Made by a program: the position numbers and the translations under genes | Source of the DNA: Deltaproteobacteria bacterium | GTDB lineage: Bacteria; Desulfobacterota; Desulfobaccia; Desulfobaccales; 0-14-0-80-60-11 | NCBI GenBank assembly: GCA_021813445.1 | Contig: JAKAKP010000043.1 | Span: 1 to 64,000, forward strand | Direction of reading: 5' to 3' | DNA: 64,000 nucleotides | Shown here: positions 2,830 to 30,860 of the stretch, piece by piece | Position numbering within the stretch: the stretch's first letter is position 1 | Layout: every line of letters begins with the position of its first letter | Notes under the pieces: model-generated | Told to the model about the DNA's origin: nothing | Databases searched by the model: none | The model's input: the letters and a program-made list of their open reading frames with translations, nothing else

Positions 2830-2906
2830 ATAACACTAATTCGGGTTTGAAACAGGAATTGAATAGGCGGGAAGATAGGAAAAGCGGGAACAGATCTAAC
2901 GAAAAG

Positions 2907-4969: not shown

Positions 4970-5590
4970 ATGCGGCTTATAAGGGGGAAAAAAGTCACAA
5001 TCATTCAGTATCAAGGCACTGTAAATCGAAAGCAGCGAGAGAAGTTAGCCGGCCATAGGAGCATGGTAATCTGGTTCACTGGTTTTTCTGGTGCTGGTAA
5101 GTCTACTGTCGCCCATGCCGTTGAGGAACGTTTGCACCAATCGGGGTTCCGTACTTTTGTGTTGGATGGAGATAATGTGCGCTCTGGCTTGTGTTCAGAT
5201 CTCGGTTTCCTCCCGGAAGAAAGATGTGAAAATATCCGTCGTATTAGCGAAGTCGCCAAATTATTTGTTGAAGCTGGAGTGGTAGTGCTCATAGCGCTGA
5301 TTTCCCCCTTTCGTTCCGACCGACAAAAAGTCAGGAATTTGTTGGGGAATAACGATTTCGTTGAGATTTATTGCAAGTGCCCCCTTGATATCTGTGAACA
5401 ACGTGATACGAAGGGACTTTATCAACGGGCTAGAAAAGGTGAAATTAAAGAATACACCGGCATTTCATCGCCGTACGAAGAACCGCTTCAATCAGATTTG
5501 GTAATTAACTCTGATAAATATTCCGTTGAGGAGTCAGTCGGAATGGTCATGACATTATTAGCCGATAAAGGATTGAGAATAATTATATAA
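4970..5590 (+). CDS. cysC: Adenylyl-sulfate (APS) kinase
   Basis: FTGFSGAGKST P-loop, LDGDNVRSGLCSDLGF, KCPLDICEQRDTKGLYQRARKGEIKEYTGISSPYE. Confidence 0.93.
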   Translation: MRLIRGKKVTIIQYQGTVNRKQREKLAGHRSMVIWFTGFSGAGKSTVAHAVEERLHQSGFRTFVLDGDNVRSGLCSDLGFLPEERCENIRRISEVAKLFVEAGVVVLIALISPFRSDRQKVRNLLGNNDFVEIYCKCPLDICEQRDTKGLYQRARKGEIKEYTGISSPYEEPLQSDLVINSDKYSVEESVGMVMTLLADKGLRIII

Positions 5591-5623
5591 CTATGAAGTT
5601 AACTTATTATAAATTGAAAGAAA

Positions 5624-6454
5624 GTGAAAAATATGTTAAAGAAACTTGCTAAAGTAACCGGGATGTACAAAGAGTACTTGCGTAATAAGATCTTTAGCAA
5701 GGCTTATTTTAATGTAATTCCAGAGAATCCATTACATGATGATCTATTTTTAGTGTCCTTTCCCAAGGCGGGAGTTACATGGCTAACTTTTATTATGGCT
5801 AATGTGCATCTGAAAATGAGTGGAATAAATCAAAAGATTACTTTCTTCAATATTGATGATTTTATTCCTGATATTCAACAGACGCGCTTTCTAAAAGAAA
5901 CTATTTTGCCTTTTCCTGGCCACCGGGTGATAAAAAGCCATGCAGAATATAATTCATTTTATAAAAAAATTATTTATTTGATACGCGATCCCCGAGATGT
6001 GATGGTGTCATATTATTGGTTTTTAAAGAAACTTAGCGCGTTTAGCGATGACTTATCAGGACTGATTCATTCTCAGCAATATGGCATTGAAGCGTGGTGC
6101 AGACATGTTCAAGGATGGGTCGAAAAACCTCCAGCTAGTGATAAAATCGATTTCATTCGCTATGAAGATATGAAATTAAAACCGCTCAAAGTATTAACGC
6201 GGATATATACTTTATTAGGGTATAATATTCCAGACGCGGTTTTGGAAGAATCGATTGAATTATCATCATTTGAGAACATGAAAAAACTTGAGGCATATTA
6301 CAATCATGGAGGGGATTTCCGCTTCCCAGAATTTGAATTTGTCAGAAAAGGGAAATCGGGCGGTTACAAAAGCGAAATTTCCCCTATGGACTTAGAGGTC
6401 ATAAACCAAACAGCTTCGCGATGGTTAAAACTGTTTGGCTATAATGAAGAATAG
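5624..6454 (+). CDS. Sulfotransferase domain protein
   Basis: N-terminal FLVSFPKAGVTWL (5'-PSB loop) and IYLIRDPRDVMVSYYWF (3'-PB). Confidence 0.9.
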   Translation: MKNMLKKLAKVTGMYKEYLRNKIFSKAYFNVIPENPLHDDLFLVSFPKAGVTWLTFIMANVHLKMSGINQKITFFNIDDFIPDIQQTRFLKETILPFPGHRVIKSHAEYNSFYKKIIYLIRDPRDVMVSYYWFLKKLSAFSDDLSGLIHSQQYGIEAWCRHVQGWVEKPPASDKIDFIRYEDMKLKPLKVLTRIYTLLGYNIPDAVLEESIELSSFENMKKLEAYYNHGGDFRFPEFEFVRKGKSGGYKSEISPMDLEVINQTASRWLKLFGYNEE

Positions 6455-6565
6455 ATTAACTTATAAAATCGCCGAAAAAGCTAGTGATATGGTCAATCAG
6501 GAAGTTTATGAATATGTTAAATTAACGCAGCAATTAGTTTTTGCATAAGGTTTAATATCAAAATT

Positions 6566-7732
6566 ATGGAGACTAGAATAAACGAGCGAAGGGTTGCGCT
6601 TTTTGTATACTACGGATGGATATCAATATCACCTTCTCTGGTAAGTACCATAAAACTATTAAATGAAAACGGTTACTTAGTTGATATTATCTATTTGTAT
6701 AACAAGAAATTTGGATATTATAAGCCTGCATTAAGTAATGTCCGATCAATTTATGTTACCTCCCATAAAATACGATTCTTAACGCCATTTAAATTTATTA
6801 TAGATTGTTATAATATTACAAAGTCATATGCATATGATTTATTTGTAGGTGTTGATCAAGAGGGCATAATAGCAGCTGGAATATTATCTATTCTGAGAAA
6901 TATACCATATATCTACTATTCTCTTGAAATATTGGCCAAAGAGGATATCGCAAAACGTAAAGGAGGCAAAAAATATTTATGGAACATACTTAAAATTATG
7001 GAAAGCTACTTTAACAGAAAAGCAATTGCGACAATAGTTCAAGATGAGTACAGGGCAAAGATACTAATAAAAGACAACTTAATAAATGAAAGGAAAATAT
7101 ATCTTATTCCTAATTCTTATTATTTTGAAGGAAAGAATATTGAAATTATGAGATATAATATAGAAGTACCTTTAGATAAGAAAATAATTATCTATGTCGG
7201 GTCCATAGTTCAAGAAGTGGCAATTAAGGAAATATTGTCTCACATAAACTTATGGCCCAGAGACACTGTTATGATTATACATGCGCCCAATAGGTCTTCA
7301 TATTTAGAAGAAGTTGAGCAAATAATTAAGCAAAATAATATAAAGAACAAGATATATATTTCAATTAAGAGGCTAACTTTTGACGAATTATGTAATTTAA
7401 TACGGAAAGCAGATATAGGAATATCATTTTATAAGTCGGTAGATAAAAATACTGAACTCGCGTGCTCAGGGAAAGTCTCTTTTTATTTGTCTCAAGGTAT
7501 CCCAATTATTATAAATGATGTTTCCCCACAGTCAAAAGAACTTGTTTCTAAATACAAGTGTGGCATATGCGTAAATTCATCTGAAGATGTGGGTGAGGCT
7601 ATCCGGGTTATTTTCAAAAGTTATTCAAAGTTTTCAAGAAATGCCAAAGTCGCTTATGGGCAAGAGCTGGATTTTAAAAAGCATTTTAACAACATATTAG
7701 AAGTAATTGCAAAAACTGCAATAAAGGAATAA
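6566..7732 (+). CDS. Glycosyltransferase (GT4-like)
   Basis: GT-B-like layout, C-terminal 'IIYVGSIVQEVAIKEIL' and 'ELACSGKVSFYLSQGIPIIIND'. Confidence 0.75.
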   Translation: METRINERRVALFVYYGWISISPSLVSTIKLLNENGYLVDIIYLYNKKFGYYKPALSNVRSIYVTSHKIRFLTPFKFIIDCYNITKSYAYDLFVGVDQEGIIAAGILSILRNIPYIYYSLEILAKEDIAKRKGGKKYLWNILKIMESYFNRKAIATIVQDEYRAKILIKDNLINERKIYLIPNSYYFEGKNIEIMRYNIEVPLDKKIIIYVGSIVQEVAIKEILSHINLWPRDTVMIIHAPNRSSYLEEVEQIIKQNNIKNKIYISIKRLTFDELCNLIRKADIGISFYKSVDKNTELACSGKVSFYLSQGIPIIINDVSPQSKELVSKYKCGICVNSSEDVGEAIRVIFKSYSKFSRNAKVAYGQELDFKKHFNNILEVIAKTAIKE

Positions 7733-7942
7733 GTTTGCAGAACCTAATCATCTTTTCTTTCTCCTCAATAAGCTATGCTGTCCTTACTTTAGGAATATTT
7801 TTAACATAAAACGAATAGACTATGAAAGTTGCATTGTACCTGATTAATCTACAATGTAGATACCAAAGGAAAAAAATCATAATGAGTATGTCTTATTTTT
7901 GGGGGGAAATGAAAAAGAAGATCATAAGAAAGGTGAAATTGC

Positions 7943-8359
7943 ATGATTGAAAATATCTGTTATAATAATAAGGTTATTGCCATTATAATATACAGAGATC
8001 ATTGTATTGAAGAGAACAAAATTGAATTCATTAGTCCTAACGACTATTTACTTCAACTTGGCTACATGAATCGGCCAGTGGGGTACAACGTGGTGCCCCA
8101 TATACATAATCCTGTACGTCGGGAGACATATGGGACTCAAGAGGTTCTTTTTATAAAGGACGGAAAAATTCTTATAGATTTTTATTCTTATGATCAGACG
8201 TTCTTGGAAAGCAGGGAATTATCTACCGGAGACGTTATTTTACTCTGTGGTGCCGGTCATGGCATTACGATGCTGGAACCAACCATAATGATAGAAGTGA
8301 AGAATGGTCCGTTTATTGAAGGCGCGGATAAGGGCCGATTCGAAGGCAAGAAAGATTGA
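7943..8359 (+). CDS. Cupin-fold protein
   Basis: VVPHIHNPVRRETYGTQEVLFIKDGKILIDFYS cupin-like pattern. Confidence 0.6.
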   Translation: MIENICYNNKVIAIIIYRDHCIEENKIEFISPNDYLLQLGYMNRPVGYNVVPHIHNPVRRETYGTQEVLFIKDGKILIDFYSYDQTFLESRELSTGDVILLCGAGHGITMLEPTIMIEVKNGPFIEGADKGRFEGKKD

Positions 8360-8485
8360 GAAAATATGTTGATATGTTGAGAAATTTCTCTCCGATTAAC
8401 TGATTAAAAAGAGCAAGAAACTCCTGGGAATATGCACGTCGATAACCGTTTACCCCTCGCTTGGGCTTCATCATAAGGAATAGTT

Positions 8486-9622
8486 ATGATTCCAGTCAAT
8501 CAGCCGTTGCTGAATGGACGGGAAAAGGAACTGCTGCAGGAGTGTATTGACACGGGCTGGATTTCCTCGGATGGCCCGTTTGTCGCCGAGTTTGAGCGTC
8601 GGTTTGCCGCATTTATCGGGGTGGGGCATGGAATTGCGGTTTGTAACGGGACCGCGGCGCTGGAAGCCGCCCTGTATGCCGCGGGTATCGGCAAAGGCGA
8701 CGAAGTCATCATGCCCTCCTTCACTATCATTTCCTGCGCCCTGGCGGCCATCAGGCTGGGGGCGGTGCCGGTGCTGGTAGACGTGGAGCCGGAAACGTGG
8801 AATATGGATGTCTCCCAGATCGAGGACCGGATAACCCCCCGGACCCGGGCCATCATGCCGGTACATATTTACGGCCATCCCGTGAATATGGATCCCTTGA
8901 TGACCATCGCCGCGAAGCATGGGCTGATGGTGGTAGAGGATGCGGCAGAGGTCCACGGTGCGGAATACAGGGGTCGAAGATGCGGCAGTATCGGCCACGT
9001 CAGTGCGTTTTCTTTTTATGCCAACAAGATTGTCACCACCGGGGAGGGCGGGATGGTGCTTACCTCCGACCCCGAGATGGCGGAACGGGCCCGTTCTTAC
9101 CGCAACCTCTGCTTTCGCCCGGAAAAAAGATTCTATCATACGGAAATAGGCTATAATTTTAGAATGACGAATATACAGGCCGCCTTGGGTGTGGCTCAGA
9201 TGGAGCGCATTGACGAGTTCATCGGCATCAAAAGGCGCCTGGGCGAGTATTACCGGGAAAGGCTTTCGACCCTGAATGGGATCAAATGCCAGGTGGAGAA
9301 ACCCTGGGCCAAAACGGTTTACTGGATGTATTGCATTGAACTGGATCAGAAGTTGGGAACGGCCCAAGACCTGATGGAGCGCTTGGGCCGGAAGGGCATC
9401 GGCACCCGGCCATTTTTTTTGGGCTTGCACGAACAGCCGGCCTTCCACGATTTGGGCCTGTTTAAGGGAGAGCGGTATCCGGTGACGGAACGCATCGCCC
9501 GCCAGGGATTATATCTGCCGTCGGGGTTGACCCTAGCGGAATCCCAGATAGATGAAGTGGTAATGGCTGTCAGGGAGATCCTGGCTGATAATAGCGCTCC
9601 TTTAGCCAAGAGATGTGTGTAA
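8486..9622 (+). CDS. DegT/DnrJ/EryC1/StrS-type PLP aminotransferase (perosamine-synthetase-like)
   Basis: MIPVNQPLLNGREKELLQECIDTGWISS; FYANKIVTTGEGGMV PLP-Lys motif. Confidence 0.92.
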   Translation: MIPVNQPLLNGREKELLQECIDTGWISSDGPFVAEFERRFAAFIGVGHGIAVCNGTAALEAALYAAGIGKGDEVIMPSFTIISCALAAIRLGAVPVLVDVEPETWNMDVSQIEDRITPRTRAIMPVHIYGHPVNMDPLMTIAAKHGLMVVEDAAEVHGAEYRGRRCGSIGHVSAFSFYANKIVTTGEGGMVLTSDPEMAERARSYRNLCFRPEKRFYHTEIGYNFRMTNIQAALGVAQMERIDEFIGIKRRLGEYYRERLSTLNGIKCQVEKPWAKTVYWMYCIELDQKLGTAQDLMERLGRKGIGTRPFFLGLHEQPAFHDLGLFKGERYPVTERIARQGLYLPSGLTLAESQIDEVVMAVREILADNSAPLAKRCV

Positions 9623-9689
9623 ATCTTGGTGCGGCGTCCATTAGCGGCGAGGGCAAGTATCGAAAACATTAAAGATAATAGGATAATTT

Positions 9690-10898
9690 ATGGAAGTTAT
9701 CAGACATACGAAATGTCGATTGTGCGGCACGGACAACTTGGTCGATGTCTTTTCCTTGGGGGAGCAGTATATCAATGACTTTGTCCCCAAGGACAGGATA
9801 GGCAAAGGAATCAAAGCGCCTCTGGATTTGGTGTTGTGCCAAAAATGTTCCCTGCTGCAATTACGGCATACGGCGCCTCAGGAACTTCTCTACTCACGTT
9901 TTTATTGGTACCGTTCCGGGGTGACCGACACCATGCGCCGGGCCTTGCGTGATATCACGCAGGAAATCGAGTCGATGGTGGAGCTGAAACCTGGGGATGT
10001 GGTACTGGACATCGGCGCCAATGACGGCACCATGCTGGCCACCTACACGGCCCCGGGCATTCACCGGGTCGGTTGCGAGCCCGCCAACAACCTGGTGAAT
10101 CAGTTGCGAGAAAACGCCGATTACGTGATGCACGATTTTTGGGGTTATGAGCGGTATATGGAGCTGGCCGGCCAGTGGGGCCTGGGGAAGGCCAAGGTGA
10201 TTACGGCCATAGGCATGTTCTACGATCTGGAAGATCCGAACAAATTTATCCTGGACTCGCAGAAAGCCCTGGCCGAGGACGGCATATTTGTGGCTCAATT
10301 GATGTGCCTGGCGTCAATGATTGAAAAGAACGATGTGGGTAATATCTGCCACGAGCACCTCGAATATTATTCCTTGGAATCTCTCAGGTACCTGTTTGAG
10401 ACCAACGGGCTGGAAATTTTCAAAATCGAGGAAAACGAGGTTAACGGCGGCAGTTACCGGATTTTCTGCCGGCATTACCAGAGCCATGGTATTCCCTTTG
10501 ATGAAAAGTACACATTGGAGGATATCCTGTTATTTGGTAAGCGTCTCCAGGAGAACCGGGACCGGTGCGTGAATTTCATCAAAGCGGAGGTGGCTAAGGG
10601 CAAGAAGGTCTATGTCTACGGGGCTTCCACCAAGGGCAATGTCATCCTCCAATACTATGGTTTGGATTCCAGGCTGATCACTGCGGCCTCGGAACGCAGT
10701 CCGGAAAAGTGGGGCAAATATACCATCGGCACCTGGATTCCCATTGTCTCCGAAGAAGAGGCCCGCAAAGCCAAACCCGATTATTTCCTGGTACTCCCCT
10801 GGGCCTTTTTCAATGAATTCTATGAACGGGAAAAGGAATGGCGACAGGGCGGGGGGCAATTCATCGTGCCCCTGCCGGAATTTAGAGTGGTGCCATGA
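9690..10898 (+). CDS. Class I SAM-dependent (C-)methyltransferase with N-terminal zinc-binding domain
   Basis: CRLCG..LCQKCSLLQL zinc ligands, VLDIGANDGTML SAM loop, ICHEHLEYYSLESL, YGASTKGNVILQY. Confidence 0.9.
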   Translation: MEVIRHTKCRLCGTDNLVDVFSLGEQYINDFVPKDRIGKGIKAPLDLVLCQKCSLLQLRHTAPQELLYSRFYWYRSGVTDTMRRALRDITQEIESMVELKPGDVVLDIGANDGTMLATYTAPGIHRVGCEPANNLVNQLRENADYVMHDFWGYERYMELAGQWGLGKAKVITAIGMFYDLEDPNKFILDSQKALAEDGIFVAQLMCLASMIEKNDVGNICHEHLEYYSLESLRYLFETNGLEIFKIEENEVNGGSYRIFCRHYQSHGIPFDEKYTLEDILLFGKRLQENRDRCVNFIKAEVAKGKKVYVYGASTKGNVILQYYGLDSRLITAASERSPEKWGKYTIGTWIPIVSEEEARKAKPDYFLVLPWAFFNEFYEREKEWRQGGGQFIVPLPEFRVVP

Positions 10899-11326
10899 TC
10901 CCCGCAGAACACTACAAGCAGATTCTTGAAGTCATGCCGCTTTTGTGTGTGGATGTGATTATCAAGAATTCCCGCGGCGAATACCTACTGGTCAGGCGGG
11001 CCAATGAGCCGCTCCAGGGCCAGTGGTGGGTGATCGGAGGACGGGTGCTCAAGAACGAAACGCTGGAGCAGGCTGTCATCCGGAAGGTCAAGCAGGAAGT
11101 GGGGTTGACCATCCGGGAATTGACGCCCGTCGGCTACTATGAGGACCGGTTCGAGAAGAATTCAATCCCGCTGGATTCACCCCTGCACACTGTCAGTGTG
11201 GTGTTTTCGACGAGCATTGATGGCCAACAGCCCATCAAACTAGATGGTCAGAGCCTCGAGTGGCAATTTCTTAAAGAGCTTCCCAAGGCCTTTCATGTGA
11301 AACCGTTTCACGAATGTTCTGTATGA
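10895..11326 (+). CDS. NUDIX hydrolase (GDP-mannose mannosyl hydrolase-like)
   Basis: WWVIGGRVLKNETLEQAVIRKVKQEVGL Nudix-box variant; overlaps upstream methyltransferase by 4 nt. Confidence 0.8.
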   Translation: MIPAEHYKQILEVMPLLCVDVIIKNSRGEYLLVRRANEPLQGQWWVIGGRVLKNETLEQAVIRKVKQEVGLTIRELTPVGYYEDRFEKNSIPLDSPLHTVSVVFSTSIDGQQPIKLDGQSLEWQFLKELPKAFHVKPFHECSV

Positions 11327-11366
11327 AGTCGATGCTGCTTATGTTAAGCATAGGAGGAATAGGACG

Positions 11367-12350
11367 ATTAGAAAAGCGCTAATTTTCGGGGTGACAGGAC
11401 AAGATGGCAGCTACCTGGCCGAGGTCCTGTTGGAGAAAGGCTACGAAGTGCATGGCATGGTCCGGAAATCAGCCACTGGCAACACCCGGAACATCGATCA
11501 CCTCATCCGGAATCCGGAACTCTTCAACCGGCGGTTTTTCCTTTGCCGGGGGGATCTCGCGGATCCGACTTCGCTGTACCACAACATCCTGAAAATCAAA
11601 CCCGATGAGATTTACAACGAGGCCGACCAGGATCATGTGGGTTGGAGTTATGATATGGTGGGCTATTCCGCGGACATCACCGGCGCCGCGGTGGGGCGCA
11701 TCCTGGAAATTATCCGCCAGGTGAATCCGGGCATCCGCTACTTTCAGCCCTGCTCTTCCAACATGTTTGGCAAGACCGACAGCCCGGTACAGTCAGAAAC
11801 TACGCCCTTCAATCCTCAGAGTCCTTATGGGTGCGCCAAGGTTATGGCCTATTATTTGACCCGCTATTATCGGGAAGCCTTTGGAATCTTCGCGTCCACA
11901 GCCATCTTTTATAATCACGAATCGCCCCGGCGGACGGAGGAATACCTCTCCCGGAAAGTTACCAAATCCGTGGCGCGGATTGCCACCGGCAAGCAGGACA
12001 AGCTGATGCTGGGTGATCTCAGCGCCCGCATCGATTGGGGCTACTCCCGGGAATATATGGAAGCGGCCTGGCAGATGCTCCAACTCGATGAACCGGATGA
12101 TTTCATCATCGCCACCGGCGAGGCGCATTTGGTGAAGGAGTTTGTCGACGAGGCTTTTGCCATCGCCAACCTGAAGCCGGAAAATTATGTGGTCACGGAT
12201 CCCAGCCTGTTGCGCCCGACCAAAACCAGCGTCTTGGTCGGCGATATCAGCAAAGCCCGGGAACGCTTCGGGTTCGACCCGCGGGTGAAGTTCAAGGAAC
12301 TCGTCAAACTTATGGTGGAAGCAGATCTGCATGCCGAACGCAGCAGGTGA
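11367..12350 (+). CDS. GDP-mannose 4,6-dehydratase-like SDR (divergent paralogue)
   Basis: [28 protein letters not shown] and NHESPRR; ORF track starts at 11391 inside the Gly-rich loop, so the start is probably an ATT at 11367 behind aggagg. Confidence 0.85.
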   Translation: MRKALIFGVTGQDGSYLAEVLLEKGYEVHGMVRKSATGNTRNIDHLIRNPELFNRRFFLCRGDLADPTSLYHNILKIKPDEIYNEADQDHVGWSYDMVGYSADITGAAVGRILEIIRQVNPGIRYFQPCSSNMFGKTDSPVQSETTPFNPQSPYGCAKVMAYYLTRYYREAFGIFASTAIFYNHESPRRTEEYLSRKVTKSVARIATGKQDKLMLGDLSARIDWGYSREYMEAAWQMLQLDEPDDFIIATGEAHLVKEFVDEAFAIANLKPENYVVTDPSLLRPTKTSVLVGDISKARERFGFDPRVKFKELVKLMVEADLHAERSR

Positions 12351-12369
12351 AAAAAACAACTGTCATTAG

Positions 12370-13010
12370 CAGGTTGCTGAATGTTGATGTCTGCTTCGTT
12401 TCAGGGGAGCAGGTATTGCCGTCAGGTTGCGCCTGCGCATCAGGTTGTAAGTTGCAGTCGTGAGGGTGAAGATCCAGCCCCCCCAGTTTTGGTCCTTAGT
12501 TCCGGGTTTTCCGGGGATTACCAATTCAGTGCCCCTGGGAATGGACTCCACCTGGGCATCGCCTTTTCGCGCTCGGCAGTGCTAGTAGTAAGGCAAGGAG
12601 GGGCAAACAGGCCGGGCGGTTTTCCATGAGCACATGCCCCACCAAGCAAAGTTTGAATTCTTTGTTTTTGCCCTGTCGGAAGAGCCGGACCTCCGGGTCG
12701 GTAGCGGAGGCGCGCGGTTTGTTTAAACTCCTTTCTCCGTGAAAGTCCACTATCAGGTTGCGACCTCCTCCCTCAGAAGGCTGCGGGGCTTGAGTCGAAG
12801 ACTATTCATGGAAGCTCGAGTTTCGATCAAGATTCGTCTACCCTGAAATGCTCATCCGACAGCAGTCTGGCTGCAATTGCCTGCTTCAATATCTGGGAGG
12901 AAAAGACCCAGCCAAGTCACGAGGTCAAGAAATCGATCCGGTTCTTAGAAAAGACGTTCCTGGACAAACTCACGAACGAGCAAAATAAGAGATTGCAATC
13001 CAGCGCTTGG
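12370..13010 (-). pseudogene. Decayed IS5-like element with left TIR
   Basis: caggttgctgaatg TIR relic; ggttgcgc.tgcgcatcaggttgtaagttgcagtcgtgagggtgaagatccagcc matches 16336-16400; tail matches 17040-17150. Confidence 0.8.
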
Positions 13011-13143
13011 ACGCCCTTCCTTGCCCTATATGGCCTCAAAGTCATGCACAGCTCGCTTAGAGGGCAGTTTAATACTCGGCAAATAGATATTTTTGAAGAT
13101 ACTATTATGAATGAATTGGTTGAACCGGAAGGGATAAGTTATT

Positions 13144-14097
13144 ATGTTTCAAAGAGTTAAATATAGCATCAAGGCAGTTATCAAATCCATTTTGCCGCCA
13201 TTTATTTACAATATCTCGTTAAAAGGATTTAATAAATTTCAGAACAGGTTATCTATCTTATTAAATAAGGGTTTCCCGGCGCCTTGGTCTCGCGGGTATG
13301 TAGAATATAAGATGCGGATGGTCAGCAGATCATTATCAGATGACGATTTATTGGGAAAATTTCGAAATCGAGAGATGTTGCCGGAGGGATACGGATACGG
13401 ACTTGACGAGAGAATAATTGAATACCCTTGGTTGTTTGCAAACCTTCCTAAAGAAGCATGTAACATTTTAGACGCCGGTTCAATCCTGAACCATAAGACT
13501 ATTATTGAACAAAGCTGTTGGTCTAACAAGAAATTACATATTGCCACATTGGCACCCGAGCCTGTGTGCTTTTGGCAAAAGGGCATATCGTATTTGTATG
13601 AAGACTTAAGATGTCTACCTATGAAAGATAACTTCTATGATGTTATTATTTGTTTATCGACAATAGAACATATTGGCTGCGATAATACAATTCATACAAA
13701 AGATGGCACTCATAGAGAGACCAGATTGGACGATTATTTGCAGGCCATTAAAGAGCTTCGAAGAGTTCTCAAACCTGATGGTTCGTTGTTTCTAAGCGTT
13801 CCTTTCGGAAAGTACGAGTATTTAGGGATGTTTCAACAGTTTGATCTGCTATTATTGAATCATGCTATGAGTAGTTTCGGTCCCGCGATTAAGGTCAGAG
13901 AAGATTTCTTTAAATATAGTAAAGGTGGTTGGCAAATATCTAAGGCTGACGAATGTTCTGATTGCACATTCGTTAAATGGATTATCGAAGCATGGCAAAA
14001 GCGGTCGGTTCCTTTTGTTGTTCCAACAGAAGGAGATTTGGCAGCGGCAGCCAGAGCTGTAGCGTGCATTCATTTAGTTAAAAAAGGTGCCAATTAA
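13144..14097 (+). CDS. SAM-dependent methyltransferase
   Basis: NILDAGSIL..., DVIICLSTIEHIG, LKPDGSLFLSVPFG. Confidence 0.75.
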   Translation: MFQRVKYSIKAVIKSILPPFIYNISLKGFNKFQNRLSILLNKGFPAPWSRGYVEYKMRMVSRSLSDDDLLGKFRNREMLPEGYGYGLDERIIEYPWLFANLPKEACNILDAGSILNHKTIIEQSCWSNKKLHIATLAPEPVCFWQKGISYLYEDLRCLPMKDNFYDVIICLSTIEHIGCDNTIHTKDGTHRETRLDDYLQAIKELRRVLKPDGSLFLSVPFGKYEYLGMFQQFDLLLLNHAMSSFGPAIKVREDFFKYSKGGWQISKADECSDCTFVKWIIEAWQKRSVPFVVPTEGDLAAAARAVACIHLVKKGAN

Positions 14098-14173
14098 GAA
14101 GGAAATAAAATAAAACAAAATCATTTAAAATACCGGGAAATAAATAAAATCATATAGAAAACCTCCATCAACT

Positions 14174-15484
14174 TTGGAAAAATATTTAAACATTTGCTAT
14201 CATATGAGAATTAATATTTCAATCAATAGGTGGAAAATTTGTTATTGGCTTCTCATGGTTTGTTTGCTGTGGGCGCCTGTAACAGGAATATTTGATGTTA
14301 TTTATATATTTAGGCAAAAGTATGTTGATGTGTTGTTAACATCCCCAGAAGCAACAGCAACTAGGGTTGTGCGCGATTTTTTAATCGTAATTTTTTATAT
14401 ATACTTTATATTGTTTATTATAATCCCAGACAGAATAAAACTAAGGTGCAATACTAATGGCAATATATTTGTAATAAGTATATTGCTGCTTAGTTCTAGT
14501 ATATTATTGTCAGTTTTATATTCAATATTAGTAGTTAAGCTTCCATTAATGGTTATCGCTCTTGGTCTTAAATCTTTTTTGTATGTGCCTTTATTTCCTA
14601 TAGCTTGGATTTTTTCTAAAGAATACCCATACGCTTTTAAAGGTATTCGGAAAGCGATATTATTTATATTAATTATTGAATTATTATTTGGACTTTTAGA
14701 GATTCGTTACGCACCTCCTTATCACGGGGTTACTGTTTTTGGGTTGGGAAGCATTCCTGAAGGAACTTTTACTCATTACAATATCTATGCCGCCTTTTTA
14801 TCATTCATGATTATGGGCCATCTTTTCATTCGAAATCTCTCTATTACCAAGATATTGTTTATCAGCACCCTGATAATGATATTTCTTGCTCAATCCCGAT
14901 CGGGATGGGTCATAGTTGCCTTTCTTCTGTCCATTTGGTTTGTCAAGGACTTTATTAAAGATTCATCAATCCGAGGAGCAGTTGTAGCAATATTGCCATT
15001 CTTTATGTTATTAATTATTGTATTACCCAGTATGGTGTTTGTGGCAAGGCAGACAGCCGCCCAGCGAGGAGTCATGGGAGATCCCCGCTGGCACATTTGG
15101 GCAACTTATTTGACGAGAGATTTGAGTCTATCGCAAGTGGGGATTGGCTCCGGGGTAGGATTGGCATCTCAAGCAGTTTTCACGTACTTTGGGGATCCTT
15201 TTCCAGGACAATTTGTCGCAGATAGCATGCATTTAGCGCTTTTTGCTCAATATGGTCTCTTAGGGATGACGTTATTTTATTGCGTTATGTTTCTGATAAT
15301 GTATGAATTATATGGATGGATTACATTTATTGTATCCATGGTAATATTAATAATGGGATTTACTTCAAATTTTTTAGAAACCTATCCGATCAATTTATTA
15401 CTGCCTGTGATGTTGGCATTCCATGATTTAGATTTTGGACATTTCTCTCCAGTTAAGCCAGCGCCAAGAATAAATGGATATTAA
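14174..15484 (+). CDS. O-antigen ligase/polymerase-like (Wzy-like) multipass membrane protein
   Basis: About 10 hydrophobic segments; FLAQSRSGWVIVAFLLSIWF pattern typical of the Wzy_C/O-antigen ligase family. Confidence 0.65.
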   Translation: MEKYLNICYHMRINISINRWKICYWLLMVCLLWAPVTGIFDVIYIFRQKYVDVLLTSPEATATRVVRDFLIVIFYIYFILFIIIPDRIKLRCNTNGNIFVISILLLSSSILLSVLYSILVVKLPLMVIALGLKSFLYVPLFPIAWIFSKEYPYAFKGIRKAILFILIIELLFGLLEIRYAPPYHGVTVFGLGSIPEGTFTHYNIYAAFLSFMIMGHLFIRNLSITKILFISTLIMIFLAQSRSGWVIVAFLLSIWFVKDFIKDSSIRGAVVAILPFFMLLIIVLPSMVFVARQTAAQRGVMGDPRWHIWATYLTRDLSLSQVGIGSGVGLASQAVFTYFGDPFPGQFVADSMHLALFAQYGLLGMTLFYCVMFLIMYELYGWITFIVSMVILIMGFTSNFLETYPINLLLPVMLAFHDLDFGHFSPVKPAPRINGY

Positions 15485-15659
15485 AAGTAATAATATCCGG
15501 CATGAGTCCGGTGAGTCTAAGCGTTTCCGCGATGTGAAGCTGACTGAGCTGCAAGATACGGGCTTTTCCGGAGCGATTTTGTGATGATCAACTCAAGGTT
15601 ACCGGATAGATTTGTATCAGTCCGTTTGGTGTAACTTAACTGCTAATTTTCCCTATTAT

Positions 15660-16169
15660 ATGTTATTTAATTCGTACGAATACATTATTATATTACTTCC
15701 GGCCGCCTTAATAATATATTTTCTGCTGAATAAATATAAATTAATTCTGGCCTCGAAAATCTGGCTCATAGCCGTATCGATTTTCTTCTATGGCTGGTGG
15801 AATGTTAAATATATTCCTTTATTATTAGGCAGCATAGTATTTAACTACCTTATAGGCAGTAAACTTGCTAAAAGAAATAAGTTAACAACTAATAAGAGAA
15901 GAAGAGGTATATTAATATTAGGAGTCACTTGCAACGTAGTACTTTTGGCATATTTTAAATACCCAGATTTTATGATAGCTAATATTAATTACATTGCCGG
16001 CTTAAATCAGGATGCACTCCATATAATTTTGCCATTAGGAATCAGCTTCTTTACTTTTACGCAAATAGCCTACCTGGTAGACACTTATAATGGTATTGCT
16101 GAAGAATACGACCCATGGAATTATTCACTATTCGTCACTTTTTTCCCACATCTTCTATCAGGCTGTTGA
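15660..16169 (+). pseudogene. MBOAT (AlgI-like) O-acyltransferase, 3' truncated by IS insertion
   Basis: MLFNSYEYIIILLPAALIIYFLL..FFYGWWNVKYIPLLLGSIVFNYLIG..LPLGISFFTFTQIAYLVDTY; reads into the TIR and stops. Confidence 0.85.
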
Positions 16170-16316
16170 AAAACCACTGTGATTAAGCTGTGTTTCCTCT
16201 TTGAGGACGATGTCGGTACCCCTATGACTGGTCAATTCTCGGAAAAACCTGGGCTGCTTCCTCCATCAGTGGCCGCTTGCCGGCAGAATTATCGGGTTTC
16301 AGATAGCTGCTTGGGT

Positions 16317-17402
16317 TCAGGGAGAAACCGCCGCCGTCAGGTTGCGCATTCGCACCAAGTTGTACGCCGCGGCGGTGAGGGTGAAGACCCAGCCCACCCG
16401 GTCCTCGCCGCGGTGCCGGGTTTTCCGGAGATTCCCCACGGTTTTCAGCCAGCCGAAGATTTCCTCCACCCGTTTGCGCAGGCGCTGACTGACGGCGTAT
16501 CCCGGATGGCAGGTAGTGCGGCCGTCAATGGCGGACTTCCTGCCGTTGCAGTTTTGGGCCAAATGGGGCATGGCCTTCAAGGCCCGTAGCGATTGAACAA
16601 ATTCCTGGGTATCGTAGGCCTTGTCGCCGCCCACGGTAATGCGATGCCGGCCGGGAACGGCCTCCACCAGGCCCACTGCCGTCTCCCGCTCAGCCGTGCC
16701 GGTAGCCGCGGTGAGGCGGGGCGAGACCACCAGGCCGTGGCGGTTCTCCATCAGCACGTGCCCCATGAAGCAGAGCTTGGCCTCTTTGCCTTTGCCCTTC
16801 TTGAACAGCCGGGCCTCGGGGTCGGTGGTGGAGGCATGCGTCTGATTCAGGCGCTTCTCCCCATGAAAGTCCACTTCCGGGTTGCGACCGCCGCCACCCT
16901 CGAGGGGCGGGGCGTCCTTGGGGTGGAAGCTCTTCAGGGAGGCCCAGGCCTCGATCAGGGTGCCGTCCACGGTGAAATGCTCGTCGGAGAGCAGCCCGGC
17001 GCTCGCCGCCTGCTTCAGGATGCGCCCGAAAAAGGCCGCGGCCAAGTCCGAGTCGAGAAAGCGCTCCTGGTTCTTGGAAAAGACGGAATGGTCCCAGACC
17101 TTGTCGTCCATGGAGAGACCGACAAACCAGCGAAACAGGAGATTGTAATCAAGTTGCTCCATCAACAGGCGTTCGCTGCGGATGGTATAAAGGATTTGCA
17201 GCAACAAGGCGCGCAGCAGCTTCTCCGGAGGGATGGAAGGGCGCCCCTCCCGGGAATACATGGCCTGGAACTCCCCGGAGAGTTCGGCCAGGGCTTGATT
17301 CGCCATGTCCCGGAGGGAGCCTTAAGGGTAGTCCTGGGGTACCCGGGCTTCGGGAGAAAGGTAGCTGAACATGGCTTGCTGGTGCACATCCTTGCCGCGC
17401 AT
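16317..17402 (-). pseudogene. IS5-family transposase with in-frame TAA at codon 27 (17324..17322)
   Basis: MRGKDVHQQAMFSYLSPEARVPQDYP*GSLRDMANQALAELSGEF... ; remaining 329-aa ORF 16317-17306 open. Confidence 0.85.
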
Positions 17403-17416
17403 AATGGCTACCTCCA

Positions 17417-17433
17417 GATAACATATTGTTATC
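17417..17433. promoter_or_regulatory. Perfect palindrome GATAACATATTGTTATC upstream of the transposase start
   Basis: Identical in the two best-preserved IS copies (30-46 and 17417-17433). Confidence 0.6.
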
Positions 17434-17922
17434 ATTAACTATAGCACCTTTTCGCCATTATGGACAGCCTTATTTAAGAGGCATAAACAAAAGAGTTTTT
17501 CAACAGCCTGCTAGAACTGAGCAGCTGATTGTCGAAATCAAGAAGTTAGGTCTGCAAGGAAAAATTCTCAAGAATCGAGTGATATCCGGTATCCATGGTT
17601 ACAACGCCCAGTTTGGGTCTGAAAATAGACCTTGACACTATGGCAGGAGCCCTAATGACAACAGGGACACCGAGAGCGGTTAATTGCTAAAAAGATCGTG
17701 AGTTTCCTGTTCATAGTGACAATGGAATAGACGCTTATGCCCCTCCGGTCTGAGGCAAAGATCCCTTTGCTGGCAGCCTTCAGGTACTAAGGTAAAGCGA
17801 AGTTGAGGTCTGCTGATAGGACAGCCAGAAAATCGGCGTCTGCCTGAAGCCTCGGCAACGGATTCTGAAAGTCAAAAGATACAAAGTTGTGTGGAGCAAG
17901 GTCACAAGAATCCTCAAAATTC

Positions 17923-18684
17923 ATGGGACAAAATACTAGACCCCTCGTTTCCGTAATAACTGCCTGTCTGAATGCCGAAGAGTTTCTTGTTGAGACAATT
18001 GAAAGCGTTCTGGGGCAAAGTTATCCTCATATGGAATATATTATCATCGATGGGGGATCGACTGACGGCACTGTAGAGATTATCAAACGCTATGCCAATA
18101 AGTTAGCCTATTGGCATAGCCAGCCTGACCGGGGCTTGGCCCATGCCTTCAATCTGGGGCTGAGCAAGGCCCAAGGAAAGTGGGTTCTTTTTCTCAATGC
18201 CGACGATTACTTATTTAATTCGTATGTTATCGAAAACATGGTCCCCTATTTTAAACAAAACGGGGATGCAGATGTAATTTTTGGGCAAATTGCCTGGGCC
18301 AGCCGCCAGCATGAGGATTATATTAAGTCATTCAGCATCCGGGGGCGACCCTGGCGTTGGCGCACCTTCCGGTTCGTCTGCACCATTCCGCATCAGTCCG
18401 CCTTTACCCGGCGGAAGTATTTCGAGGCGGTGGGGTATTTCAATGAAGATCTGCGGATCGCCATGGATTACGAAATCTTTCTCCGGCGAGGGCCAAGGTT
18501 GAGAGCTGTTTTTGTCCCGCAAATTATCAGTTTAATGCGCTCGGGCGGAGTCAGCTCAAACGTAATCGCCACTCTAAAGGAGTGGCGAAAAGCACAAATT
18601 CTAACCCGGGCAACGCCAAATTGGTTGATCTGGGGAAATTACTTGGCCAGGTTCATCTGGAATATGAGGGGACAAGATACTTGA
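17923..18684 (+). CDS. Family 2 glycosyltransferase
   Basis: PLVSVITACLNAEEFLVETIESVLGQSYPHMEYIIIDGGSTDGTVEII; start moved to ATG at 17923. Confidence 0.92.
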   Translation: MGQNTRPLVSVITACLNAEEFLVETIESVLGQSYPHMEYIIIDGGSTDGTVEIIKRYANKLAYWHSQPDRGLAHAFNLGLSKAQGKWVLFLNADDYLFNSYVIENMVPYFKQNGDADVIFGQIAWASRQHEDYIKSFSIRGRPWRWRTFRFVCTIPHQSAFTRRKYFEAVGYFNEDLRIAMDYEIFLRRGPRLRAVFVPQIISLMRSGGVSSNVIATLKEWRKAQILTRATPNWLIWGNYLARFIWNMRGQDT

Positions 18685-18891
18685 TAAGGTACTAATCCTG
18701 GGTTATGGGCTGGAATTAGGGTGGATTTATCCCCAAAATCTGATAAGAAAAAGTTAATTTGGAAAAAATGCTGCTAGTGGTGAAACTGGAAAGGATGATC
18801 AGACTATATTTTGCTTGATCTAGGCCTTCATGATAAATTATATGGGCTTAAAGCGAAACGCTAACTCAGGAAATTTATACGAGGTTTCAAT

Positions 18892-19146
18892 ATGATACCA
18901 TTATTAATATTTGTCATGGTCTTGGAAATGGTCCTTGACTTTCCTGCCAATGCCTACGCTTATACCGACCCTAACTTAGGTAACGTTATTTTTCAAGTTC
19001 TTTTCCCGATTATTACTGGTATATCAGTGGGATATCTCGTTTGCAAAAATTATCTCAAAAGAAAGTTCGCCTCCTTTAAAAAACGGCTTTGGGAATTCAC
19101 TAATAGAAAATCGGCAACCGATTTAAATTCCGATGCCCAGAAATAA
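18892..19146 (+). CDS. Small membrane protein with YxDPxxG-type motif
   Basis: Signal/TM, AYAYTDPNLGNVIFQVLFPIITGISVGYLV..KRKFASFKKRL; overlaps next gene by 14 nt. Confidence 0.65.
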   Translation: MIPLLIFVMVLEMVLDFPANAYAYTDPNLGNVIFQVLFPIITGISVGYLVCKNYLKRKFASFKKRLWEFTNRKSATDLNSDAQK

Positions 19147-20914
19147 TATAAACAAGAAGGTAATCGTCATTGGGATTGACGGGTTTACCCCGAAGATCTT
19201 GGAAAGCATGATGGGGAGGGGGGAACTCCCGAATTTCTCCAGACTTGCGGGCAAAGGCATGTTTAGTCCAATGCAGACCGTCTTTCCCCCTCAAAGTCCG
19301 GTGGTCTGGACCACAATTGCTACCGGTCGTGCTCCCCGAGATCACGGAATTTTCGACTTCCTTAGGCCCATACCTGGCCAATACTCTCCGCAATTAACAA
19401 TATTGCGGCAAGGGAAAATCGCTTATAATCGACCTTATAAAGCCAAGACTTTTTGGGAAGTTGCTTCGGAAAGGAACACCCCTGCCACCATACTCAAATG
19501 GCCGTTGACTTTCCCAGCCACCCCCACGCTGGGTAACGTGCTTTCAGGCCTAGGAACCCCTGACCTCCTTGGTACCATGGGAAGGTACACCTGCTTCATG
19601 AGCAATGAAATCCCGGAAAAAGCGGATAGAAAAGGAACCATTACCAAAGTGGATATCCTCAAGGACAAGATAAAAACCAGTATTGCTGGTCCCATCACCC
19701 TCGCCTTTCCTGGGACAAAGTCGGCCAGGGCCCCCTTAGATATCGAATTGTCGGAAGGAAGAATTCACTGCTCCCTGGGGGAATCCACTTTTTCTCTGGA
19801 GGAAGGTTATTGGAGTGACTGGATTCAGGTGGACTTCAAGGTCGGTTTCCTGCGGCATGTGAGTGGCATGTGCCGGTTTTATTTAGAAAGAATTAAACCA
19901 GATTTCAAGCTTTATGTAACGCCAATCAATATTAGTTGCAAGACACAAACAATGCCAATTTCTGCTCCATTGGGCTATGCCAAAAGGCTATCAGCATCGG
20001 TTGGCGATTATTCAACTCTTGGCCTTGCAGAGGACGTTAACGCCTTGAAAGACTTGATCATCGATGAACGGGCTTTCCTCTCGGGCTGTGAAATGATCAT
20101 GGAGGAGCGAGAGAGAATCTTTTCCCTGGCATTACAAGAATTCAACCAAGGAATTCTGGCTTGCATTTTTGACACACCTGACCGAATTCAGCACATGTTC
20201 TGGCGGTATCTGGATCGGGACCACCCTTTATACAAAGAACCAGAGGCACAGGTTTTTGGAGAAGTTATTCCGGCCGTTTATCGGCGACTGGACGGCATTC
20301 TGGGCAAAGCTCTGGAAAGGGTGGATGAGGAAACTCTAATAATTGTTTGTTCGGATCATGGCTTTTACAGTTATCGATGGTCTGTTCATCTTAACACCTG
20401 GCTGGTGCAAAACGGCCTCATGGCCCTGAAACCGGGGCGAGCAGAAGGTCGGGACCTATTTCAAGATATAGATTGGTCGAAAACCTCTGCTTTTGCCCTT
20501 GGATTAAACAGTCTCTTTCTTAATATCAAGGGCCGGGAGCGGCAAGGAACGGTAGAGCCTGACGCATTGCCTCTAATCAAAGAGGAATTGGTGCGAAAAC
20601 TTAAAGCTTGGTCACACAATGATAGACCCGTAATTAGGACCATTGATGTCATAGAACAGCCTTACGGCCAGATAACGGACAATCAGGCCCCAGACCTAAT
20701 TATCGGGTACGACGAAGGATATAGGAGCTCTTGGCAAACCGCCGTTGGTGGAGTTCCAGGCGTGGTCATCGAGCCTAATCTCGACAAATGGAGCGGGGAC
20801 CATTGCGGTGATCCGGAACTTGTACCGGCAATTCTTCTCACCAATGAGAGAAATCTGCTCAAGAAGCCTCACGTCCAGGATATCTCTCCAGCGATTCTCG
20901 ATTACCTGGGATAG
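19133..20914 (+). CDS. Alkaline-phosphatase-superfamily protein (type I phosphodiesterase/nucleotide pyrophosphatase)
   Basis: VIVIGIDGFTPKIL, PPQSPVVWTTIATG nucleophile region, VCSDHGFY. Confidence 0.88.
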   Translation: MPRNNINKKVIVIGIDGFTPKILESMMGRGELPNFSRLAGKGMFSPMQTVFPPQSPVVWTTIATGRAPRDHGIFDFLRPIPGQYSPQLTILRQGKIAYNRPYKAKTFWEVASERNTPATILKWPLTFPATPTLGNVLSGLGTPDLLGTMGRYTCFMSNEIPEKADRKGTITKVDILKDKIKTSIAGPITLAFPGTKSARAPLDIELSEGRIHCSLGESTFSLEEGYWSDWIQVDFKVGFLRHVSGMCRFYLERIKPDFKLYVTPINISCKTQTMPISAPLGYAKRLSASVGDYSTLGLAEDVNALKDLIIDERAFLSGCEMIMEERERIFSLALQEFNQGILACIFDTPDRIQHMFWRYLDRDHPLYKEPEAQVFGEVIPAVYRRLDGILGKALERVDEETLIIVCSDHGFYSYRWSVHLNTWLVQNGLMALKPGRAEGRDLFQDIDWSKTSAFALGLNSLFLNIKGRERQGTVEPDALPLIKEELVRKLKAWSHNDRPVIRTIDVIEQPYGQITDNQAPDLIIGYDEGYRSSWQTAVGGVPGVVIEPNLDKWSGDHCGDPELVPAILLTNERNLLKKPHVQDISPAILDYLG

Positions 20915-20947
20915 GTAATGACTTAACGCCAATCGTCTCAAATCACT

Positions 20948-22873
20948 ATGGAAAAATCTTCCCTATCAGCCTTCGGTTTTGCTCTTAAATGGTGGATTTT
21001 TATTTTTATTACCGTTCTTTTGCCCTTTGATTTTCTCTATCGGGTGGGTTCGTTGCTGGAAGGCCTTTCCCCCTTGCAAATCGAAGTGGCATTTTCATCC
21101 GTGGTAGTTTTCTTTGTCATTTTGGGGCTAACCATAGCCTTCCTATCTTTGGTATTTTCATGGCTTTTTACCAAAATTAACTTTAATGGCACTGAAATTA
21201 TAAATAAAACCAATGCCATTCTTGGCATTTTTTGCGTGATAATCTTTTTTTCGGAATATTTATGGGCATGGATAAAAGAGGTATTGAAATTTCAAACAAT
21301 AACTGGCAATCTTAGGCTAAGCTATATAATAATATCTGGGTTATCGATTGTATTAATTGCAGGTATTATTTTTCTAGTTAGGAAATGTAACAATATTATT
21401 AATAATATCTCATCGATATCCAGATTTTTTGCCAAAATAAATATTTTTATAATCATAATTTCCGCAACTTCCCTATTGTTATTTGGCTTTATTTCCCTGA
21501 ATGATAGTCAGAAAAAAATATGGTCTTTTGATGAGATCAGTAAAAATAATCATAGATCCTACCCTAATATAATTTTAATCACATTTGATGCCTTTGCGGC
21601 GCAGCATAGTTCTTTATATGGGTATCATTACAAAACGACGCCGAATATAGACAAACTGGGCCAAGAAAGCTACGTGTTTGATAACATGTATTCAAGTTCT
21701 AATTGGACTTTGCCAAGCTTTGCCAGTTTAATGACTGGTAAATATCCCAATCATCATGGGTTAATTAAGAATATTTCATATTTTTGGAGATTAGGCAGAA
21801 AGCAAAATATAGCATTCCTTTTGAAAGAAATTGGTTATGAGACTGCGGTCGTTTGGTCAAATCCCTATGGTTGTCCCTGGAATAATAATATAAAAGGGTT
21901 TGAGAGGGTTGCACCTAACAACACCTCCTGGGATTTTTATTACGTACCAGGATTAGGACCGAACTCATGGTTATCTGCATTAATTGGAGGGAATCATATT
22001 TACAAACTTATGAAGAACTTTTCGGACATATGGCAAAAAGAAGCTAATAAACTTGATGTAACGATGAAAGCGGAATTCACTTTTGACCAAGCATCAAAAC
22101 TGCTAACTGATATTAAGTCCCCTTTTTTCCTCTGGATACATATCTTTCCCCCCCACGATCCATACTTATCTAACCGCATTTATCGATATAGTATTCTTAA
22201 GGAAAAAATATTTGACAATGTTGACAAGTTTTCACGCGCTCCGGAGCTTCATTATCCTCCAAAAGATCAACCTCTAGTTGATAAACTTTCAATGCGATAT
22301 GATGAGAACCTCCTTTATGCAGACGATGAATTCGGAAAATTCTTGACATTCTTAACCCAAAGAGGCTTGTTTGATAAATCTATCCTCATCGTTTCCTCTG
22401 ACCATGGTGAGATGTTTGAAAAAGGTTTCAGGGGGCATGGCGGCCCCTACCTCTATCAACCCCTTATCCACGTGCCGCTAATTATCCACCTACCGGGGGA
22501 AACCCGGGGGCAGAGGATTGGCATAAATGTCAGCCATGTGGATATCGCCCCAACTATCTTAGATATCTTAGGGGTAAAACCGCCCATGTGGATGGACGGA
22601 AGGTCCTTCAAGGCCGCGCTTGAAGGTAGTAATATCGATATTGGCATAAAATATTCCATGAATTTAGGGTACGTTAACTGTCCATCAGATTTAAAGACCC
22701 GTTCTTTTGCTGCGATAAAACAAAACTACAAACTTATTAAGTACTCGGATTGGCATCGATATGAACTATATGATGTGAAAAAGGATCCACAGGAAAAACT
22801 GAACTTAATAGCAAAGAAACCCGAAATATTCTCCTCTCTTAAAGCTGAAATTGACCACACTTTTAGGAATTAG
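20948..22873 (+). CDS. Membrane-anchored sulfatase-like/phosphoglycerol-transferase-like AP-superfamily protein
   Basis: Five or so N-terminal TM segments; LITFDAFAAQHSSLYGY, NWTLPSFASLMTG, SSDHGEMFEKGFRGHGG. Confidence 0.85.
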   Translation: MEKSSLSAFGFALKWWIFIFITVLLPFDFLYRVGSLLEGLSPLQIEVAFSSVVVFFVILGLTIAFLSLVFSWLFTKINFNGTEIINKTNAILGIFCVIIFFSEYLWAWIKEVLKFQTITGNLRLSYIIISGLSIVLIAGIIFLVRKCNNIINNISSISRFFAKINIFIIIISATSLLLFGFISLNDSQKKIWSFDEISKNNHRSYPNIILITFDAFAAQHSSLYGYHYKTTPNIDKLGQESYVFDNMYSSSNWTLPSFASLMTGKYPNHHGLIKNISYFWRLGRKQNIAFLLKEIGYETAVVWSNPYGCPWNNNIKGFERVAPNNTSWDFYYVPGLGPNSWLSALIGGNHIYKLMKNFSDIWQKEANKLDVTMKAEFTFDQASKLLTDIKSPFFLWIHIFPPHDPYLSNRIYRYSILKEKIFDNVDKFSRAPELHYPPKDQPLVDKLSMRYDENLLYADDEFGKFLTFLTQRGLFDKSILIVSSDHGEMFEKGFRGHGGPYLYQPLIHVPLIIHLPGETRGQRIGINVSHVDIAPTILDILGVKPPMWMDGRSFKAALEGSNIDIGIKYSMNLGYVNCPSDLKTRSFAAIKQNYKLIKYSDWHRYELYDVKKDPQEKLNLIAKKPEIFSSLKAEIDHTFRN

Positions 22874-22883
22874 GCTTTCTGAT

Positions 22884-23549
22884 ATGACTCTTGCTGACAA
22901 AATCGAGGAAAGCCTAAGTATCATAGGTTATGCTATAAAAGAATTCGGAGAATCATTAGCCCTTACTTTCAGCGGCGGTAAAGATTCCTTAGTAGTCTTG
23001 CATCTGACTCGGTCATTGTGTGGTGATACTGTTCCTTTCCCGGTCTTAAGTATCGACACCACTATGAAGTTTCCTGAAACCATCCAATTTCGTGACAAAA
23101 TCGCTTCCCTATGGGGTCTTAATTTGATAATCGTAAAAAACGAAAAAGCTGCAGAAATCATAGAAATCGTCAAAGATAAACAAGCCTGCTGTCAGGCCTT
23201 AAAAATTCAACCTCTGAACGAGGCTATTGTCAAATATAATATCAGAGGCCTCATTACTGCCATCCGCTGGGACGAGCAAGAGGCCAGGGCTTCTGAACAG
23301 CCAATATCCCCTCGGGAAACTCCGCCCCATATTAGAATTCATCCCATCCTCCAATTTAATGAGGCCGACATTTGGGACTATATCCATGAATTCAAGTTGC
23401 CCTATTGCGAACTTTATGACAAAGGTTATCGTTCCCTCAGTTGCATTCCCTGCACTGGCAAATGTCATGAGGATGACAGTGAAAGAATGGGCAGGAGTGC
23501 CAAGAAAGAGAAAATAATGAATGATCTTAGGTTGTTAGGGTACTTCTAA
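22884..23549 (+). CDS. PAPS reductase/CysD-type ATP pyrophosphatase family protein
   Basis: TFSGGKDSLVVLHL PP-loop; ACCQALKIQPLNEA; RWDEQEARASE; SCIPCTGKC. Confidence 0.85.
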   Translation: MTLADKIEESLSIIGYAIKEFGESLALTFSGGKDSLVVLHLTRSLCGDTVPFPVLSIDTTMKFPETIQFRDKIASLWGLNLIIVKNEKAAEIIEIVKDKQACCQALKIQPLNEAIVKYNIRGLITAIRWDEQEARASEQPISPRETPPHIRIHPILQFNEADIWDYIHEFKLPYCELYDKGYRSLSCIPCTGKCHEDDSERMGRSAKKEKIMNDLRLLGYF

Positions 23550-24709: not shown

Positions 24710-24725
24710 GTTTGGAGTTAGCTGT

Positions 24726-26480: not shown

Positions 26481-26621
26481 GTTAGGGATCAGTGTCATCA
26501 GGCCGGCATGGTGGAACTGAAAAACCGGATTGCCCCTTACCTGTCACGGTTCAAAAGCTGGTTAAACAACCAGACAGTCCTCTTATTCTCGCTAATTTCA
26601 ATTAATTGACGAAATCTTACC

Positions 26622-29758: not shown

Positions 29759-29796
29759 AATAACCCATCAGGTTAATTGGGAAAAAGGAAAGATGC

Positions 29797-30852: not shown

Positions 30853-30860
30853 AAGGGATA

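Follow-up and report, generated by a model that had tools for sequence, protein, structure and literature searches.

Described systems and the locus

In a study of Vibrio sp. KMM 8419, genes for 3′-phosphoadenosine 5′-phosphosulfate (PAPS) together with sulfotransferases in a polysaccharide cluster were taken as a hallmark of sulfated polysaccharide synthesis (PMC11641403). Here we describe a locus in the first 64,000 nucleotides (the window) of contig JAKAKP010000043.1 from the Deltaproteobacteria bacterium assembly GCA_021813445.1, order Desulfobaccales, that holds two sets of genes: an adenosine 5′-phosphosulfate (APS) kinase gene, cysC, with a sulfotransferase gene (module A), and a gene for a PP-loop protein resembling CysD and CysH with two genes of the alkaline phosphatase (AP) superfamily (module B). 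Like the capsule cluster of the Vibrio strain, it has PAPS synthesis and a sulfotransferase encoded inside a polysaccharide cluster, but where that cluster has cysN, cysD and cysC, there is cysC alone here and the ATP sulfurylase (Sat) is encoded elsewhere in the genome.

For module B the nearest known pairing is that of bacteriophage exclusion (BREX) type 4, which involves PglZ, a protein of the AP superfamily. There a PAPS-reductase-like protein is paired with PglZ in a defence based on DNA phosphorothioation (PMC12839542). Module B likewise has a PAPS-reductase-like PP-loop protein encoded next to an AP-superfamily protein, but it lies in a polysaccharide setting and its AP proteins are of families PF00884 and PF01663. 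Module B was rejected as a defence system because the PP-loop protein gives only a partial match of 48 bits to BrxP. None of the defence models is hit by its AP proteins, and neither BREX partners among the window proteins scanned nor a defence setting was recognised.

The initial annotation had placed all five genes in one sulfation set. Their positions and identities are borne out, with Pfam and NCBIfam matches as listed below, and on balance we favor an account in which the locus holds two separate modules and sulfation is the work of module A.

4970..5590, + strand: APS kinase (CysC), which makes PAPS from APS (PF01583, 221 bits)
5624..6454, + strand: PAPS-dependent sulfotransferase, 33 bp 3′ of cysC (PF00685, 117.5 bits)
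19133..20914, + strand: AP-superfamily protein of phosphodiesterase/nucleotide-pyrophosphatase type, module B (PF01663, 121 bits)
20948..22873, + strand: membrane AP-superfamily protein, about five transmembrane segments and then a sulfatase-fold domain, module B (PF00884, 163 bits)
22884..23549, + strand: CysD/CysH-like PP-loop protein, module B (PF01507, 148 bits)

The cysC–sulfotransferase pair

The CysC protein scores 262 bits against the NCBIfam apsK cut-off of 138.7 and contains the P-loop GFSGAGKST, and a strong Shine-Dalgarno sequence, AAGGAGG, lies 5′ of its gene. The genome encodes no PF00685 protein other than this sulfotransferase. Its PAPS-binding motifs had been called intact, and the sequences FPKAGVTWL, VIKSH, IRDPRDVMVSYY and RKGKSGGYK do align with the motifs of cytosolic sulfotransferases (SULTs), but the 5′ motif, PKAGVTW, departs slightly from the usual PKSGTTW. 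In the pathway that we propose Sat would produce APS, CysC would phosphorylate it to PAPS, and a cytoplasmic sulfotransferase would pass the sulfuryl group to a sugar hydroxyl of a polysaccharide or of its lipid- or nucleotide-linked precursor.

As first reported, neither cysN nor sat is present in the window. A single Sat is encoded on another contig of the genome, where the surrounding genes appear from their order, size and sequence to be aprB, aprA, qmoA, qmoB and qmoC. This sat-apr-qmo arrangement is the usual gene order in sulfate reducers. Because Sat is available from elsewhere in the genome, the lack of an ATP sulfurylase in the cluster is no obstacle to the pathway. None of the 29 genomes in the class comparison set, which includes the source genome, has a CysN above the TIGR02034 cut-off. 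On contig C63 of the source genome there is a second cysC, amid what appear to be other polysaccharide genes.

Among the class genomes 11 carry cysC and 12 carry a sulfotransferase, counting both PF13469 and PF00685 types, with both found in 10 (Fisher P=3.3e-5, uncorrected for kinship, the carriers belonging to four or five genera and not being independent). A search of the cysC–sulfotransferase neighborhood, which the initial annotation had proposed, returned genes side by side in several of these genomes: in the window itself, in G007, in G013 (two loci), in G017 and in G018. At one locus of the sister species G013 (G013:C1) the order is cysC, sulfotransferase, wzx, wzy, with a wzc-like gene nearby. 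The subfamily to which the window sulfotransferase belongs is rare, being found in 8 of the 395 genomes of the phylum set including the window's own, and a wzx or ABC-2 export permease gene adjoins three of the seven other relatives. A relative of 41% identity lies on a Bradyrhizobium plasmid in a polysaccharide cluster with glycosyltransferases and an ABC exporter, while a search for relatives in phages gave no match. The use of PAPS from the local CysC by the adjacent sulfotransferase on a polysaccharide, as originally suggested, is well supported by the co-occurrence in the class, the wzx-wzy locus of the sister species and the contexts of the relatives, and, taken by itself, the reading that module A sulfates the polymer is in our view likely. 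If so, APS, an intermediate of respiration, may be diverted into a sulfated surface polymer in one lineage of sulfate reducers.

Several observations weigh against this conclusion. The window sulfotransferase subfamily has no match in the other 28 class genomes at E<=1e-20, one genome (G028) has cysC with no sulfotransferase detected, and the substrate class of the enzyme is not revealed by its sequence. Two cysC–sulfotransferase pairs of the class, L063 and L065, lie outside obvious polysaccharide clusters, which would suit an alternative in which the sulfate goes to a lipid or small molecule and the pair owes its place in the cluster to a chance transfer; the low and uneven GC content of the cluster, which suggests piecemeal acquisition, would suit it also. 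We hold this alternative to be unlikely, as the pair is on the same strand and embedded amid glycosyltransferases, and the relatives of the window sulfotransferase are found in polysaccharide clusters. At L063 and L065 cysC stands beside a large PF13469 sulfotransferase gene with radical-SAM-like genes near, and the products may possibly be sulfated lipids.

The PP-loop and AP-superfamily genes

The PP-loop gene, which probably starts with the ATG at 22884, and the two AP genes form a module that we hold with good confidence to be separate from the sulfation set with which they had been grouped. The sister species keeps the gene order of module B, with identities of 61% for the phosphodiesterase-type protein, 43% for the membrane AP protein and 68% for the PP-loop protein, and neither cysC nor any sulfotransferase was detected on the contig that bears it. 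The PP-loop gene is present in 10 of the 29 class genomes, eight of which have no cysC at all; the two genes occur together in 2 of the 10, with an association that is negative in direction (Fisher P=0.23), and the PP-loop protein was rejected as a partner in the PAPS pathway for its lack of co-occurrence with cysC. An AP-superfamily gene lies within a few kb in 10 of the 13 PP-loop loci of the class, several of which also have wzx-like and wzc-like genes. The class copies at L086, L089 and L096 are found beside apparent rny and ymdB genes, one of them with a sulfatase-type neighbor.

The five genes could instead make up a single system, in which the PP-loop protein would serve as the ATP sulfurylase of the cluster, together with CysC and the sulfotransferase, and the AP proteins would trim sulfate. 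It is true that the PP-loop protein is CysD-like, is encoded in the same cluster and is the only PF01507 protein of the genome, but the pattern in the class and on the sister contig speaks against such a system, as do the Sat already present in the genome and the threonine nucleophile of the “sulfatase”. Elsewhere, among 14 genomes that carry PP-loop/AP genes, cysC is missing from 10 and Sat from 10, some of the genomes being small or incomplete. We therefore judge a single system to be improbable.

The association of the PP-loop gene with AP genes extends well beyond the class. When public genomes were scanned, 374 PP-loop relatives were recovered, from which 80 loci were kept, and AP genes were detected in these with purpose-built profiles. 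An AP-superfamily gene was present in 31 of the 80 loci, and in 27 it adjoined the PP-loop gene (<100 bp) or was fused to it, always on the same strand, compared with a mean of 6.7 and a maximum of 16 in 5000 trials of random placement, loci of close kin not being independent. The link between the two proteins is thus observed directly as adjacency and as fusion. Four fusions into a single protein were found, with a sulfatase-type domain in Desulfovirgula, Nitrospira and a Bacillota metagenome-assembled genome (MAG) and with a phosphodiesterase-type domain in Hydrothermarchaeota; as some MAG assignments may be wrong, not too much should be made of any one taxon. In a tree of the family the AP-linked members are scattered over several lineages, with the deep branches poorly resolved. 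In a Nitrospirota locus that was scanned, genes for a sensor kinase and for a sigma-54 response regulator flank the PP-loop/AP pair. In the Nitrospira MAG (L074, 4947-8710) the gene directly after the sulfatase/PP-loop fusion is again of the sulfatase type, and its active-site motif is similar.

Module B may matter more than module A, in that fusions and adjacency link CysD-like and AP-superfamily enzymes over at least six phyla, often in carriers without the PAPS pathway. The literature searched contained no function for the pair and no paper on it in polysaccharide loci, which is weak evidence as most subscription papers lay outside the search, and the pair, which spans bacteria to archaea, is apparently undescribed.

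Chemistry of the PP-loop and AP proteins

We read the PP-loop protein as a CysD-like, ATP-dependent adenylylating enzyme rather than a reductase, because its SGGKDS loop is intact, its C-terminus is of the CysD type, it has no ECGLH cysteine and no CysN in the class passes its cut-off. The protein carries the sequences SGGKDS, CC...CxxC and ERxGR...KE...LGYF, and across the family SGGKDS, RxDE..R and ERxGR...GY are conserved. It shares with CysD (1zun; E. coli) SxGKDS, DTxxKFxE, RxDE..R and the C-terminal ERxGR...GYF, which in E. coli CysD is ERQGR...GYF. Unlike CysD it is approximately 80 residues shorter, has the extra CC...CxxC and comes from a genome with no CysN over the cut-off, and curated cut-offs do not assign it as CysD (PRK05253, 135.7 against 195; TIGR02039, 95.6 against 396.6). 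Nor do they assign it as CysH, as all NCBIfam reductase cut-offs are missed.

The structural comparison points the other way. An AlphaFold2 model of the protein, with a predicted local distance difference test (pLDDT) score of 90.6, has as its best Foldseek match the APS reductase 2goy with APS bound, so that the nearest structure is an APS-reductase fold; CysD 1zun was also matched, as were TtuA and NcsA. The CC...CxxC ligands and a GYxSxxCxPCT sequence are further likenesses to 2goy, and the protein might on this evidence be an APS reductase whose sulfite could go, for instance, into a sulfonated sugar. However, the ATP loop of 2goy is degenerate and its ECGLH cysteine is present, whereas the PP-loop protein has an intact ATP-cleaving SGGKDS loop and no equivalent of the C-terminal ECGLH catalytic cysteine of CysH. 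The four APS-reductase-like iron–sulfur (Fe-S) cysteines are present in the window protein but are not conserved in the family. Members from Nitrospirota and Patescibacteria that retain the AP partner have lost all four jointly, from which it follows that the core reaction can do without an Fe-S cluster. Taken with the missed reductase cut-offs, this makes an APS reductase highly improbable. In the Bipolaricaulota relatives L078, L079, L082, L084, L090 and L099 an insertion with C-x-x-C spacing replaces the adjacent CC.

Of the two AP proteins, the phosphodiesterase-type protein has the motif SPVVWTTIATG. The active-site region of the membrane AP protein, NWTLPSFASLMTG, has threonine at the nucleophile position; this threonine lies in NWTLPSFASL, whereas sulfatases have cysteine or serine in CxPxR, so the protein is not a formylglycine sulfatase. 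The two AP proteins were rejected as sulfatases on the ground of the threonine nucleophile. When the partners of other PP-loop proteins are aligned, those of the sulfatase type have threonine where sulfatases have cysteine or serine, and those of the phosphodiesterase type have mostly threonine or serine, with one cysteine and one valine. Hydropathy places about five hydrophobic segments N-terminal to the catalytic domain of the membrane AP protein. Transmembrane segments ahead of the catalytic domain are the layout of phosphoethanolamine or lipoteichoic-acid-type transferases, and by this likeness the catalytic domain would face outside the cytoplasm. Transferases of the EptA/LtaS type share with the membrane AP protein several N-terminal transmembrane helices, a threonine nucleophile and a putatively extracytoplasmic AP-fold domain, but it misses all of their NCBIfam cut-offs and is closer to soluble sulfatases (PF00884, SGSH_C). 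The phosphodiesterase-type protein has no hydrophobic segment, and of the two it is the more likely to work with the PP-loop protein in the cytoplasm.

We tentatively propose, at somewhat less than an even chance, that module B activates an oxyanion for glycan decoration. With ATP and in the absence of CysN, the PP-loop protein would adenylylate an oxyanion to give APS or a comparable AMP anhydride, and an AP partner with a threonine nucleophile would join it in a second step that decorates the glycan with sulfate, phosphate or another group; that the substrate is sulfate is a guess. A PAPS-independent pair common to sulfate reducers, Patescibacteria and archaea, many of them without Sat or CysC, in which the CysN-free CysD-like enzyme makes an APS-like oxyanion and the threonine AP enzyme, part of one polypeptide with it in some organisms, draws on that oxyanion directly to transfer sulfuryl or phosphoryl groups to sugar, we consider a doubtful extension of this proposal. 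Against oxyanion activation stand the many PP-loop relatives with no AP neighbor, in Actinomycetota, Bipolaricaulota and Desulfovibrionales, and the model of the phosphodiesterase-type protein is too poor to use (pLDDT 54.8). The Desulfovibrionales relatives (L113, L107, L114, L115 and their kin) are encoded just 5′ of ispG and proS with no AP partner, a context that suggests another role.

Module B might instead carry out phosphorothioation-like or other sulfur insertion, with a PP-loop protein akin to DndC, SspD or BrxP and an AP enzyme that handles phosphate. In the defence library the highest-scoring model is BrxP (48-62 bits), and in BREX type 4 a similar protein goes with PglZ, while the Fe-S-type cysteines in many members and the matches to TtuA and NcsA also fit. 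The joint loss of the four cysteines in members that retain the AP partner and the context of polysaccharide synthesis do not, and no BrxC, BrxL or other BREX gene and no cysteine desulfurase was found among the Pfam-scanned window proteins, the genome not having been searched for them. Sulfur insertion is in our view quite improbable, and oxyanion activation is the function that we prefer for module B.

Gene setting of the cluster

The two modules lie in a polysaccharide cluster that uses GDP-mannose-derived sugars, as had been noted initially, with glycosyltransferases, a Wzy_C protein, GDP-mannose-dehydratase-type genes, manB and manC among its members. The Pfam scan of the window proteins gave two GDP-mannose-dehydratase-type genes and one epimerase gene in the cluster, whose further features are as follows.

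2745..4847, + strand: CDP-glycerol glycerophosphotransferase-like or surface polysaccharide protein (PF04464, 42.7 bits)
6566..7732, + strand: glycosyltransferase-like protein, a weak match, 3′ of the cysC–sulfotransferase pair (PF00534, below cut-off)
8486..12350, + strand: sugar-nucleotide block of DegT aminotransferase, C-methyltransferase, NUDIX and GDP-mannose 4,6-dehydratase-like genes (Pfam)
14174..15484, + strand: Wzy_C or O-antigen ligase-type membrane protein (PF04932, E 4.5e-6, 27 bits, slightly under cut-off)
16317..17306, − strand: insertion sequence (IS) transposase between modules A and B (PF05598 and PF01609)
17887..18684, + strand: family 2 glycosyltransferase (PF00535, 107.7 bits)
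23564..31808, + strand: glycosyltransferases, carbamoyltransferase, initiating sugar transferase, GDP-mannose dehydratase and epimerase/reductase (Pfam)
34563..37372, + strand: manB and manC, for GDP-mannose supply (Pfam)

The first base of the window is the first base of the contig (C43), in a genome of 4.18 Mb in 166 contigs, so the polysaccharide cluster may be cut and may extend beyond it. Neither this nor the IS transposase inside the interval 4970-23549 had been noted initially. The IS transposase gene has a GC content of 0.634 and most cluster genes have values of 0.30-0.56. To the right of a tRNA-Arg gene (39798-39874) GC is approximately 0.60, while to the left it is 0.32-0.54 (window positions 40000-64000 against 1-40000). 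The cluster resembles an island acquired piecemeal next to core genes, pheT and guaB among them. At the contig start (854-2242) there is a gene for a B12-binding radical SAM protein that falls under every NCBIfam cut-off.

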